Under the pieces are notes generated by a model. It was not told the DNA's origin. It saw only the letters and a list, made by a program, of their open reading frames with translations, and ran no database searches. From the NCBI RefSeq assembly GCF_029639405.1, contig NZ_CP121274.1, forward strand, positions 2,170,001 through 2,234,000: a stretch of DNA of 64,000 bases, given 5' to 3'. This document shows, in pieces, positions 60,851-64,000 of this stretch; the stretch's first letter is position 1, and the number at the start of each line of letters is the position of its first letter. This stretch comes from Microbacterium proteolyticum (lineage in GTDB: Bacteria > Actinomycetota > Actinomycetes > Actinomycetales > Microbacteriaceae). The position numbers were made by a program, and so were the translations under genes.

Positions 60851-61024
60851 ATGAGCGATCCGCAGAACACCGGCCCGGCCGACGACTCCGAGGACCTCGG
60901 CGACGACCAGACGGTGGCGCCCAGCCAGACGAACGACGTGGACGAGCAGTCGAAGGCGCCCTCCGGCGACGACCCGGACGCCGACCACCAGGCCACCGGC
61001 ATCGGGGTCATCGGCGACGAGTGA
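60851..61024 (+). CDS. Small acidic protein (57 aa)
   Basis: Asp/Gln/Thr-rich peptide starting MSDPQNTGPADDSEDLGDD and ending in a short GIGVIGDE segment; probably disordered. AAGGGA precedes the ATG by about eight bases. GC3-biased. It is the last host gene before the tRNA-Arg locus, so it would lie next to the integration site. No function assigned. Confidence 0.65.
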   Translation: MSDPQNTGPADDSEDLGDDQTVAPSQTNDVDEQSKAPSGDDPDADHQATGIGVIGDE

Positions 61025-61078
61025 CCCCGTCTCCCCGGTCGGGGGCGCGTCTGCCACGATGCTAACCTTGACCGGTCC

Positions 61079-61121
61079 GCCTCCGTAGCTCAGGGGATAG
61101 AGCGTTGGTTTCCGGTACCAA
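61079..61121 (+). pseudogene. Truncated tRNA-Arg(CCG), 5' half only (element junction)
   Basis: The acceptor 5' strand GCCTCCG, the D arm, and an anticodon arm TTGGT-TTCCGGT-ACCAA (anticodon CCG, 61112-61114) are normal. After 61121 the sequence diverges: no T-arm (no TTCGA loop) and no acceptor 3' strand can be found. The gene is thus cut just after the anticodon stem, the usual kind of site for an integrase. Confidence 0.85.
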
Positions 61122-61198
61122 CGTTCATGCCTGTACTATGGCGGAAACACGCAGAAAAACCAAACACGGAGTACCCCAACTGGTGCCCAATGTGTTTT

Positions 61199-61271
61199 GC
61201 CTCCGTAGCTCAGTGGATAGAGCATCGTCTTCCGGTGGCGAGGGCCGCAGGTTCGATCCCTGCCGGGGGCA
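61199..61271 (+). tRNA. tRNA-Arg(CCG), complete copy
   Basis: Full cloverleaf: acceptor GCCTCCG/CGGGGGC (one U-G pair), D arm, anticodon arm TCGTC/GGCGA with loop TTCCGGT and anticodon CCG (61232-61234), variable loop GGGCC, T arm GCAGG-TTCGATC-CCTGC and discriminator A271. CCA is not encoded. Its anticodon stem, variable loop and D-loop differ from the truncated host-type copy 77 nt upstream, so it came with the element rather than from repair of the same gene. It reads CGG codons, common here. Confidence 0.93.
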
Positions 61272-61327
61272 CACGTAGAACGCCCCGGCGACCATCATGG
61301 TCAGCCGGGGCGTTTCGTCGTCGAGTG

Positions 61328-62206
61328 TCAGTCGCCGTGCGCCTGGGTGATGATCTGATCGGCGGAGTGGAATGCCCCGCCCTGCGCGATGCCGGATGGC
61401 GCCCACCCATCCCCGGTGATCCACGCCAGGGTAGCCGCGACATCCCCGTGATTCTTGATCGCGTAGTGGCGGGCGAGATCCTCGGCGCTCTCGTAGGCGG
61501 GGGTGATGGGCGAACCCTCGCTGACTGTTTCCCAGATCTGCCACCACTCGCCGGTCGGCGGTTCGATCGCGCTCCAGGCTTCAGCGATCGCCCCTTGGCC
61601 CACGAACCGCTCGCGGCTGGCGGAACCGCCACACGTGCCGCATACGTACGTCAGCCCTTCGCGCTCGCACCGCGCGCGGATGACGATGTGAGCGTTGATC
61701 GAGTCGTGCCCGAAGCCGCCCAGGGACCACGCGTTCACCTCGGCGGCGGTCGGGTGGTAGGGCTCCTCTCGGTCCTGCCAGCCGGACCCGGGAACGAAGA
61801 CGCGTGTTAACTCCCACAGGCGGTCCTCGGCCACGAGTGTGTCGACGTCCTGCTGCGAGAGGTGGTGCATCCACTGCTTGTTCCAGTGGGCCAGCAGGCG
61901 CTCGGCCTCGCGGACGATCACACTCTCGCCGGAACCGTAAAACTCCGGTGAACGCTCGACGTTCCGCTCTGCGAAGGCACGCACGGCCGGTGTCTCGACG
62001 GTGTAGGGCGATGAGCCCGTGCTGGCCGGGTCGAACGGGCGGTATCCATACCACTCGTCTTGGAGTCGCTTGCCATCGGCGGACAGGCCGTGCTCGCAGT
62101 CTGGGCACGAGTCCGCGCGAAGCCACTCAGGCATCATGAAACCCTCCCAGACCTTGTCGAGAGGCCAATCGAAGTTCGCCGGAACGCGGCGAACCTCGCG
62201 GCCCAT
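61328..62206 (-). CDS. Actinophage-type protein of unknown function
   Basis: 292-residue protein of a family common in actinobacterial phages, beginning MGREVRRVPANFDWPLDKVW. It has a CPDC pair (about 34-37) and a CGTCGG pair (about 190), which may bind one zinc, and QQDVDTLVAEDRLWELTRVF, a helix conserved in the family. No known enzyme motif. It lies immediately right of the tRNA on the minus strand, with convergent orientation. Codon use is less GC3-biased than host genes, a sign of transfer. Confidence 0.75.
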   Translation of the reverse strand: MGREVRRVPANFDWPLDKVWEGFMMPEWLRADSCPDCEHGLSADGKRLQDEWYGYRPFDPASTGSSPYTVETPAVRAFAERNVERSPEFYGSGESVIVREAERLLAHWNKQWMHHLSQQDVDTLVAEDRLWELTRVFVPGSGWQDREEPYHPTAAEVNAWSLGGFGHDSINAHIVIRARCEREGLTYVCGTCGGSASRERFVGQGAIAEAWSAIEPPTGEWWQIWETVSEGSPITPAYESAEDLARHYAIKNHGDVAATLAWITGDGWAPSGIAQGGAFHSADQIITQAHGD

Positions 62207-62350
62207 TAGTTGCGCGCCCCTTGCTCATGTGTGGACAGGGTTTCGGTAGACTGCATGGCAGCCCTCCATTCGGTTGAGTCGATATGGTCGGCAGGCCCGG
62301 GTCGAGTGTTCACGCACTCCCCGGGCATTCCCATACAGATCACACTACCC

Positions 62351-62368
62351 GTGATCCACACTGATCAC
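62351..62368. repeat. Inverted repeat GTGATC-N6-GATCAC
   Basis: Perfect 6-bp arms around CACACT, at the 3' end of the next HTH gene; a related GATCACAC is 14 bases to the left. It may be an operator-like site (inference) or a small terminator. Confidence 0.35.
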
Positions 62369-62691
62369 AACGCCGGCTTGTCGTCTCCCAGCCGTTGCGC
62401 GCGTAGATGCAGCTCCTCGGTCAGGAAGCTCGACGGCGCGACAGACACGGCGCTACGCAACCCGCCCTCGGTGAAGTCCGTCTCGTGCAACCAGCCCGTG
62501 CGCAACAAGGCCAACACGGGGTCTGCACCGTACGCACGAGCGATCAATATTGCACCGTCGGCGGGGATCTGACCGGCGCGCACCCACCTACCCACGGTTG
62601 TCGCGCCGAGGCCGATCCTGCGTGAGATGGACTGGTGAGACTCGCCCTTTGTTGTCTCAGCCAACCATTTTCGCCAATCCTGGCCCGCCAT
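62365..62691 (-). CDS. HTH protein, probable immunity repressor
   Basis: 108-residue protein with an XRE-like helix-turn-helix (about 17-45: SHQSISRRIGLGATTVGRWVRAGQIP) followed by ILIARAYGADPVLALLRTGW, a pattern seen in actinophage repressors. The C-terminal third is short, with no peptidase domain. It is the first gene on the minus strand from a region full of repeats (62711-62764). Likely roles are lysogeny control or autoregulation. Confidence 0.75.
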   Translation of the reverse strand: MAGQDWRKWLAETTKGESHQSISRRIGLGATTVGRWVRAGQIPADGAILIARAYGADPVLALLRTGWLHETDFTEGGLRSAVSVAPSSFLTEELHLRAQRLGDDKPAL

Positions 62692-62710
62692 ACACCATTA
62701 CCGCCCTTTC

Positions 62711-62764
62711 GCACATAGCCAGCACATAGAACAGTTCACTTTCGATCGAACATCTGTTCTATGT
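62711..62764. promoter_or_regulatory. Operator-rich control region of the element
   Basis: ACATAGAACAG (62724-62734) and CTGTTCTATGT (62754-62764) are perfect 11-bp inverted arms 19 bases apart; in the spacer is TTCGATCGAA (62741-62750), a perfect palindrome. GCACATAG occurs at 62711-62718 and 62722-62729. The block lies between the HTH gene (minus) and a plus-strand gene, as phage immunity operators do. Confidence 0.65.
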
Positions 62765-62859
62765 CCGTGCAGTCACGTACAGTTAGCCGTCTCGCCCTGG
62801 GTAACACCAGAAACAACCGTCATCCCTCGCCCGAGGGGACAGCACAGCAGGGGGACACT

Positions 62860-63009
62860 GTGACCAGAATCAACGACGATTCAACCTTGACCGAACTGAT
62901 CCGCGCCGCCCGAGCCGTGGGAGTGACACCGGGGGAGATGTACGCGTCGATCTTCGGCGCCGACGACGAAGCCACCTACGGGGTAGAGGCGAACGCCGTA
63001 GCTCAGTAG
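62860..63009 (+). CDS. Small protein of the element (49 aa)
   Basis: GTG at 62860 follows AGGGGG by about six bases. The peptide (MTRINDDSTLTELIRAARAV, then GVTPGEMYASIFGADDE) has one amphipathic helix. No family recognised. It is the first plus-strand gene right of the operator block and ends 6 bases before a convergent HTH gene. Confidence 0.6.
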   Translation: MTRINDDSTLTELIRAARAVGVTPGEMYASIFGADDEATYGVEANAVAQ

Positions 63010-63015
63010 GGTTCG

Positions 63016-63294
63016 CTACTTCTTCCCGGTCGCCTTGTCGGCCGCTGCCCAGATCTTCGACAGCGGCACATCAAGAGCCTCAGCGATACGGCGAATGTCT
63101 GAGATCTTCGAGTCGCCGGTGCCGTAGAGGGTGCGTGAAACCGTCGCACGGGGGACGCCGGAGATCTCGGCGAGGTCGTCGAAGGTGAGCTTCGTTCGGT
63201 CCTTCTCGACCTTGAGCGCGGCACCTACCGCTTTGGCGTACGCCTTGTCGGCGTCGTTCAGCTTGCTCTTCTCCATACAGATCATGGTAGCCAT
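63016..63294 (-). CDS. XRE-type HTH regulator (92 aa)
   Basis: Helix-turn-helix protein with LTFDDLAEISGVPRATVSRTLYG and DIRRIAEALDVPLSKIWAAAD, the two-part XRE pattern; the end is Lys-rich. Starts at 63294, 63285 or 63276 are possible; the longest is given. Its divergent partner gene starts at 63346, with a repeat-bearing gap between. It probably acts as a Cro/CI-like regulator for this region (inference). Confidence 0.8.
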   Translation of the reverse strand: MATMICMEKSKLNDADKAYAKAVGAALKVEKDRTKLTFDDLAEISGVPRATVSRTLYGTGDSKISDIRRIAEALDVPLSKIWAAADKATGKK

Positions 63295-63312
63295 TTCAGC
63301 CCATTTGGGTTG

Positions 63313-63344
63313 TGCTCTGTAGAGAGCAGGCGTAGTGTGCTCTG
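63313..63344. promoter_or_regulatory. Divergent promoter with TGCTCT repeats
   Basis: TGCTCT (63313-63318) and AGAGCA (63323-63328) are 6-bp inverted arms four bases apart. TGTGCTCTG occurs at 63311-63319 and again at 63336-63344, 25 bases on. TAGTGT (63333-63338) seven bases before the next ATG is a -10. The sites fit a regulator that binds several half-sites. Confidence 0.55.
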
Positions 63345-63345
63345 C

Positions 63346-63552
63346 ATGGATCAGATCACAGACCCGGTTACTGACGCAGTCAGAACCGCGATCGAGGACA
63401 ACTTCCCCTCCATCCGAGCCGCTGCATCAGCATCCGGCATCCCCTACACCACCCTCGACCGCCGTCTCCGTGACGGCTCCTGGACCCTCGCAGAGCTGAG
63501 AAAGCTCTCCGCAGCAACCGACACCAACCTGCTCGAGGCGGCGGCACGATGA
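63346..63552 (+). CDS. Small HTH-like protein (68 aa)
   Basis: Peptide with SIRAAASASGIPYTTLDRRLRDG, an HTH-like recognition pattern, then LAELRKLSAATDTNLLEAA. Cro-like proteins have this size and form. TAGTGT seven bases before the ATG and no Shine-Dalgarno suggest a leaderless message. Its stop overlaps the next ATG (ATGA). It is opposed to the HTH gene at 63016. Confidence 0.7.
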   Translation: MDQITDPVTDAVRTAIEDNFPSIRAAASASGIPYTTLDRRLRDGSWTLAELRKLSAATDTNLLEAAAR

Positions 63553-63731
63553 CCGCCCCCAGCAAGCGCATGTACACGCGTGAAGAAGCCGCGGAGTACT
63601 GCGGCATCTCGTACTACAAGATCGCGAACGCCGTGCGGAACAACACCATCCCGGCGCGCAAGAACGGGCGAGACATCCTCATCGACGTCGCCGACCTGGA
63701 CGCGTACATCGACAGCTTCGAGGTCGCGTGA
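63549..63731 (+). CDS. Excisionase-family HTH DNA-binding protein
   Basis: 60-residue MerR-like/excisionase domain: MYTREEAAEYCGISYYKIAN, then IPARKNGRDILIDVADLDAYIDSF. This is the short HTH-17 form that binds att or promoter DNA in actinophages and integrative elements. Coupled by ATGA to the preceding gene, and its TGA shares one base with the next ATG. Confidence 0.85.
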   Translation: MTAPSKRMYTREEAAEYCGISYYKIANAVRNNTIPARKNGRDILIDVADLDAYIDSFEVA

Positions 63732-63898
63732 TGACGCAGTTCGCGATCATCGAGGGTTACCCAGAGGGCGATACGTGGACTCATTACTTCCATGATGTCG
63801 AGACCGCCAAGTGGAACCTGCGCGCGCTCCGCGAGGCTCACCCGTGGCGCGAGTACGTGCCCGTCGGCTTTGACGAAGACGCTTCCGATCGCGCCTGA
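63731..63898 (+). CDS. Small protein of the element (55 aa)
   Basis: Starts at the last base of the previous stop (TGATG). Sequence MTQFAIIEGYPEGDTWTHYF and VETAKWNLRALREAHPWREY, a short acidic and aromatic protein resembling small phage early proteins, but without a known function. Confidence 0.7.
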   Translation: MTQFAIIEGYPEGDTWTHYFHDVETAKWNLRALREAHPWREYVPVGFDEDASDRA

Positions 63899-63912
63899 CC
63901 CCATACACAGAC

Positions 63913-63939
63913 CCGCCCCCGGATTGCAGCCAGGGGCGG
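63913..63939 (+). terminator. Hairpin before the last gene
   Basis: CCGCCCC (63913-63919) and GGGGCGG (63933-63939), seven perfect pairs with a 13-nt loop, between two plus-strand genes. Weak terminator or an attenuator. Confidence 0.45.
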
Positions 63940-63965
63940 ACCGTAAAGGAAGGAGGGCAGTACAG

Positions 63966-64000
63966 ATGCCCACCAACAACAGAGTACCCGTCAACCGAAC
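63966..64000 (+). CDS. Start of a gene running off the right edge
   Basis: ATG at 63966 with a very strong ribosome site (GGAAGGAGGG, about nine bases upstream). Only MPTNNRVPVNR is visible, so the product cannot be named. Confidence 0.55.
   Translation, partial: MPTNNRVPVNR

Follow-up and report, generated by a model that had tools for sequence, protein, structure and literature searches.

Putative tRNA-dependent lysogeny at the single tRNA-Arg(CCG) gene of Microbacterium proteolyticum

tRNA-dependent lysogeny was defined by Guerrero-Bustamante and Hatfull (2024, mBio, PMC10865867), whose mutants and integration plasmids show that the phage tRNA is needed in mycobacteriophages. As described in the accessible text of that paper, the phages in question (Fionnbharth, LeBron, BrutonGaster, OneUp, Mollymur, Cain, Gaia, and others) have a tyrosine integrase and a short core in the anticodon loop, with common cores of 8-17 bp in Table 2. 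In these actinobacteriophages the host tRNA is not rebuilt, and a phage tRNA of the same isotype is present. Ordinary integration, with the 3′ half of the host gene restored, is described there for Boilgate, Ximenita, and Omega, and the evolutionary relation of the rebuilding and replacing modes is called unclear. A further case is found in Sinorhizobium meliloti prophages like Mesorhizobium phage vB_MloP_Lo5R7ANS. According to the available part of PMC11476347, these prophages inactivate a host tRNA-Leu(UAG) on integration, and its place is taken by a prophage tRNA that is the same isoacceptor but dissimilar to it.

The locus analyzed here shares with the actinobacteriophages of PMC10865867 a tyrosine integrase, a short anticodon-loop core, an unrebuilt host tRNA gene, and a phage-borne tRNA matching that gene in isotype. 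It differs from them in its host, Microbacterium, and in its target, tRNA-Arg(CCG); the main text of that paper contains neither Microbacterium, nor tRNA-Arg, nor CCG. The S. meliloti prophages belong to another phylum and use another isotype. tRNA replacement was also looked for in PMC12429752 and was not seen in its accessible part. Among the literature matches listed, which included few subscription papers, no title or abstract opening reported tRNA-dependent lysogeny in Microbacterium. The mechanism belongs to a known kind; new are the host genus and isotype, a second, probably independent case, and a possible capture of the host promoter.

The interrupted tRNA-Arg(CCG) gene and the carried tRNA

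The window, which is the whole 64-kb stretch of DNA analyzed, corresponds to G000:C2:2170001-2234000, where G000 is the studied genome. The following features are located at and around the left junction:

61060..61068, + strand: putative −10 box of the host tRNA promoter, TGNTANNNT, ending 10 nt before the tRNA (by conservation)
61079..61121, + strand: stump of the host tRNA-Arg(CCG) gene, positions 1-43 (attL), with 43/43 bases equal to the intact gene of relatives
61110..61121, + strand: 12-bp core common to attL and attR, TTCCGGTACCAA, covering the anticodon loop and the 3′ anticodon strand
61110..64000, no strand: share of the prophage that falls within the window (46.7 kb in all, up to attR)
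61122..61198, + strand: 77-nt phage spacer between the core and the carried tRNA (by sequence)
61199..61272, + strand: complete prophage-borne tRNA-Arg(CCG) (ARAGORN; Rfam RF00005, 60.9 bits)
61278..61315, + strand: strong G+C-rich, terminator-like hairpin just 3′ of the carried tRNA (by fold energy)

An earlier note on this DNA had described a left tRNA copy that keeps only the acceptor 5′ strand, the D arm, and the anticodon arm before turning into unrelated sequence, followed 77 nt downstream by a complete tRNA-Arg(CCG) with a different body. Both parts of this description were borne out. The stump retains the acceptor 5′ strand, the D arm, and the entire anticodon arm, and after 61121 the window departs from the intact gene of relatives. 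ARAGORN called a single tRNA over the window, the tRNA-Arg(CCG) at 61199-61272, which is identical to the rejoined host gene in 62/74 bases and different in the remaining 12. This is also the sole tRNA found by ARAGORN in the 46.7-kb element, and it lies directly behind the core in the same direction as the host gene.

The missing host part (positions 32-74, 43/43 bases), which the note had proposed to look for at the far boundary, was found there, 2.1 kb from the integrase gene. This attR is located outside the window at G000:C2:2277812-2277854 and includes the second copy of the core (2277812-2277823), so that the cores are 46.7 kb apart. The rejoined host halves equal the intact tRNA of two relatives, G068 and G042, in 74/74 bases. 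Both relatives carry one intact tRNA with flanks collinear with both outer flanks of the G000 element, and the left and right flank matches overlap only at the core bases where the sequences were cut. ARAGORN gave no tRNA call at attR; at attL its single call is the carried tRNA. At the level of the bases, these junctions show that neither rebuilds a working host tRNA, because integration took place in the anticodon loop through the 12-bp core. The proposal of the note that the element breaks the host gene and brings its own tRNA is therefore supported by the junctions, by the empty sites, and by the single CCG tRNA described below.

Some other interpretations were tried and rejected: a tandem duplication or pseudogene, by the 74/74 match of the rejoined halves and the collinear empty sites; a small, decayed element made up of the 77 nt alone, by the other host half lying 46.7 kb away; and ordinary rebuilding with a diverged 3′ half, by the lack of a complete host tRNA at either junction.

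The minimum-energy fold of the carried tRNA is without the anticodon stem; both ARAGORN and Rfam accept the cloverleaf. The stretch 61273-61325, containing the hairpin, folds with −33.1 kcal/mol (z −6.1) and has few T after the hairpin, which was not listed by a terminator scan.

In total, 45 tRNA genes were found in G000 with the Rfam tRNA model, all above the cut-off, and all 45 were typed by ARAGORN (30 loci, 13 further stretches, the window tRNA, and L002). Anticodon CCG is present in only one of them, the prophage's own, which settles the question raised earlier of whether the genome holds another CCG tRNA. The remaining arginine tRNAs have the anticodons ACG, TCT, and CCT. CGG makes up 320 of the 1324 arginine codons in 34 long ORFs of the window, which were picked by third-position G+C and may include some non-genes. 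Decoding of this codon by a different tRNA is conceivable.

The G000 locus is, with high probability, an instance of tRNA-dependent lysogeny. In the proposed mechanism, a temperate-type phage used its tyrosine integrase and the 12-bp core to integrate into the lone tRNA-Arg(CCG) gene, at its anticodon loop. In the lysogen, the carried tRNA would stand in for the destroyed one, keeping CGG readable, a putative replacement of the kind proved in other phages. Transcription would probably begin at the promoter of the host tRNA and cross the 43-nt stump and the 77-nt spacer before reaching the carried tRNA, a start about as probable as one at a promoter of its own, and the carried tRNA would then be released by normal tRNA processing. 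Exact excision would regenerate the host gene; imprecise loss of the prophage would delete the sole CCG tRNA. The carried tRNA is presumably both expressed and needed in the studied strain.

Rebuilding and replacing elements in Microbacterium

Elements with related integrases were found in the same tRNA-Arg(CCG) gene of four other genomes: G213 (labelled as the same species), G182, G155, and G265. These elements, like that of M. telephonicum described below, are presumed to be prophages and were annotated for the integrase only. Here, the 3′ fragment lies near the integrase and a complete tRNA is found 40-48 kb away. Thus, ordinary tRNA integration in these genomes shares the host gene, related integrases, and an anticodon-arm crossover with G000 but leaves a complete tRNA at one junction, whereas the G000 element has one at neither. 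The uninterrupted junction identity is 50 bp in G155 and G265, 15 bp in G213, and 16 bp in G182. In G213 and G182, the phage-supplied 3′ half is complete, with a few bases unlike those of the host. Since junction identity is short in these two rebuilders, core length alone cannot separate the two modes; the presence of a complete tRNA does. A tRNA-Leu(CAA) is located between both junctions of the rebuilding G265 element (L230:5321-5395).

Integrase matches with E of 1e-50 or better were found in 16 of 295 genus genomes, G000 included (17 matches). The region of about 10 kb around the integrase was surveyed in 11 of the 15 other genomes, leaving out G097, G136, G148, and G149. A 3′ fragment of tRNA-Arg(CCG) was present in four of them, the rebuilders named above, and absent in seven. 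In the stretches of G257 that were examined, ARAGORN found a tRNA-Asn and nothing else. The integrase matches of G257 (L101) and G265 (L105) have one internal stop codon each.

A second replacement case was found in Microbacterium telephonicum S2T63. This was the one genome-contig match to a pattern in which 66-96 nt separate the broken half from a tRNA D arm, scanned as exact letters with this single gap range. The 5′ part of the host gene (positions 1-48) is located at G310:C3:277832 and the 3′ part (positions 27-74) at 315381. A complete tRNA-Arg(CCG) lies at 277945-278018, behind a 66-nt spacer. The core is 22 bp long, which is beyond the range of Table 2 of PMC10865867 and still short of the T arm. 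The integrase gene, about 1.9 kb from the 3′ part, encodes a protein 44.8% identical to that of G000. All 46 tRNA genes above the cut-off were typed, and the only CCG one is the carried tRNA.

With other gap ranges, the pattern matched 2/366 genus genomes at 41-101 nt (G000 and G376, the assembly holding the M. telephonicum locus and labelled as the same genus) and 1/366 at 101-161 nt; in a family sample, 4/398 genomes matched, G000 included. The matches in G288, G589, G664, and G532 were dropped as replacement loci, since no 5′ half of a tRNA precedes the motif there. Viral contigs, scanned for the pattern with three gap ranges, gave no matches.

In both replacing elements, the carried tRNA keeps the anticodon loop, and both strands of its anticodon stem differ from those of the host gene. 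It has 3 mismatches over the 12-bp core in G000 and 7 over the 22-bp core in M. telephonicum. Such mismatches may protect the carried tRNA against attack by the phage's own integrase.

A tree was built for 26 integrases, with the long-branch sequences of G148, G149, and G097 left out. The G000 integrase groups with those of the rebuilders G213 and G182 with moderate support (93/90), and that of M. telephonicum with the rebuilder G155 (100/100, 66% identity). Identity of the G000 integrase to the related rebuilder integrases is 42-50%. Constraining the two replacers to one clade made the tree worse by 78 log-likelihood units (p-AU 0.0005). The two carried tRNAs share only 52/74 bases with each other; to the host gene, the numbers are 62 (G000) and 58 (M. 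telephonicum) of 74. The split of the integrases between branches and the low identity of the carried tRNAs therefore favour two origins of replacement, unless integrase and tRNA were exchanged separately, and the M. telephonicum case is probably independent. A viral record from human faeces (L157, MT835840.1, 'Bacteriophage sp.') has an integrase that groups tightly with those of G182 and G213, and this record may therefore be a fragment of a Microbacterium-type phage.

These elements extend putative tRNA-dependent lysogeny to Microbacterium and tRNA-Arg(CCG) and provide a natural comparison at one host gene, with four rebuilders, one of the same species, against two replacers. Such a set makes the direction and number of mode switches testable. 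According to its abstract, Islander finds tRNA-borne islands through the rebuilt tRNA, and island finders that rely on this feature may miss replacement-type elements.

Expression of the carried tRNA and competing explanations

A TGNTANNNT box precedes the host tRNA in 19/20 related loci (the twentieth, L023, was unparsed), its end 9-11 nt from the gene; in both G000 and G310 it ends 10 nt before the stump. This conservation suggests that it is a promoter −10 box. The 30 nt immediately upstream of the carried tRNA contain no TANNNT in either Microbacterium element, which by itself is weak evidence. The G000 spacer has a single TANNNT, TACTAT, whose end is 59 nt from the carried tRNA, and in M. 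telephonicum the motif is absent from the entire core and spacer. In contrast, TANNNT ends 5-11 nt before the tRNA in all five known phages checked (Fionnbharth, BrutonGaster, OneUp, Mollymur, and Cain); of these, only BrutonGaster has the full TGNTANNNT form. This weak contrast sets 5 known phages against 2 Microbacterium elements, a small sample.

Position relative to the core was also compared, with the cores of the known phages located by short anticodon strings and core lengths taken from PMC10865867. In four of the five, 116-176 nt separate the tRNA from the core, and the tRNA and integrase genes are on opposite strands. The G000 tRNA shares this nearness and orientation; the Microbacterium spacers are shorter (77 nt in G000, 66 nt in M. 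telephonicum). In Fionnbharth, the tRNA and the region upstream of the integrase are about 2.5 kb apart. Since a core-adjacent tRNA is also found in known phages, it is the missing −10-like box just before the tRNA, not adjacency, that distinguishes the Microbacterium pair.

Given this missing box, the carried tRNA may use a captured host promoter. We put at even chances a capture in which the carried tRNA is promoterless, silent in the free phage, and switched on by integration behind the stump, an arrangement that would have at least two origins among Microbacterium phages with rebuilding integrase relatives. If so, only lysogens would produce the replacement, as fast as the destroyed gene had been expressed, and the phage would tie its dose and timing to the gene it breaks. 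Somewhat short of an even chance is the alternative that the carried tRNA does replace the host one but has its own promoter, as in Fionnbharth, where a tRNA promoter was shown by reporter (PMC10865867, accessible text). This alternative is compatible with tRNA-dependent lysogeny and concerns the expression step only. The position of TANNNT in the five known phages and the TACTAT of the G000 spacer speak for it; the motif's absence close to both carried tRNAs and the conserved host box speak against it. Consensus scans were too weak to exclude such a promoter: sigma-70 and terminator scans of 60950-61400 gave no hits, and in a hexamer scan the spacer score was reached by 455/500 shuffles, with the conserved host box likewise missed (305/500) and only the upstream region of Fionnbharth standing out (16/500).

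Readings in which the carried tRNA does not replace the host one fare worse. Phage tRNAs have been proposed in PMC10865867, as far as accessible, to supply codons during lytic growth or to counter host tRNA-cutting defences, and the match to the integration site would then be incidental. This is unlikely here: the only tRNA called in 46.7 kb has the anticodon of the broken gene and adjoins the core, and the same pairing of tRNA and site recurs in M. telephonicum. Two similar tRNA pieces side by side could also suggest that the host gene proper is the complete tRNA, with the left half persisting from a tandem duplication or from an older element since lost. We regard this as highly improbable, since the stump joined to the distant 3′ half gives the G068/G042 gene with collinear flanks, from which the complete copy differs in 12/74 bases. 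Furthermore, the side-by-side pair without an element, which the note had named as contrary evidence, was not found in any of 366 genus genomes at gaps of 41-161 nt. tRNA-dependent lysogeny thus remains the preferred explanation of the G000 locus.

Prophage content

The part of the prophage inside the window contains the following genes beyond the carried tRNA:

61328..62206, − strand: phage gene nearest the tRNA, encoding 292 aa, with no Pfam or PHROG family
63016..63294, − strand: repressor-like HTH gene (phrog_4583, E 2e-9; HTH_31)
63549..63731, + strand: excisionase-like HTH_17 gene (PF12728, E 2e-11; phrog_66, E 7e-7)

The integrase gene is located near attR, at window-equivalent positions 104320-105690, and its product is, by domain content, a tyrosine-family integrase (PF00589, E 4e-16; SAM-like domain; phrog_1, E 3e-62). 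Its identity is 36.8% to the integrase of Fionnbharth and 30.8% to that of BrutonGaster, phages proved to use tRNA-dependent lysogeny. Genes for portal, major capsid, tape-measure, major tail, M23-peptidase, and ssb proteins were also found in the prophage. An IS21-type istA/istB pair is inserted among the tail genes, outside the window (L040:11116-13577, equal to G000:C2:2262116-2264577; IstB_IS21, E 2e-63), and the prophage may therefore be defective.

A DNA search of phages with L039:100-20000 gave 16 records, each covering at most 2% of the query. The 292-aa protein had tblastn matches in 13 phage records, and its gene had no locus among the viral contigs. These matches included the Microbacterium phages Zooman and Big4 (47-48%) as well as large Caulobacter and Brevundimonas phages (30-42%). 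Two further integrase matches of 81.3 bits each were found on the same strand of the smaller contig, C1, of the studied genome (G000:C1:50683-51279 and 118789-119385), perhaps reflecting a duplicated segment.
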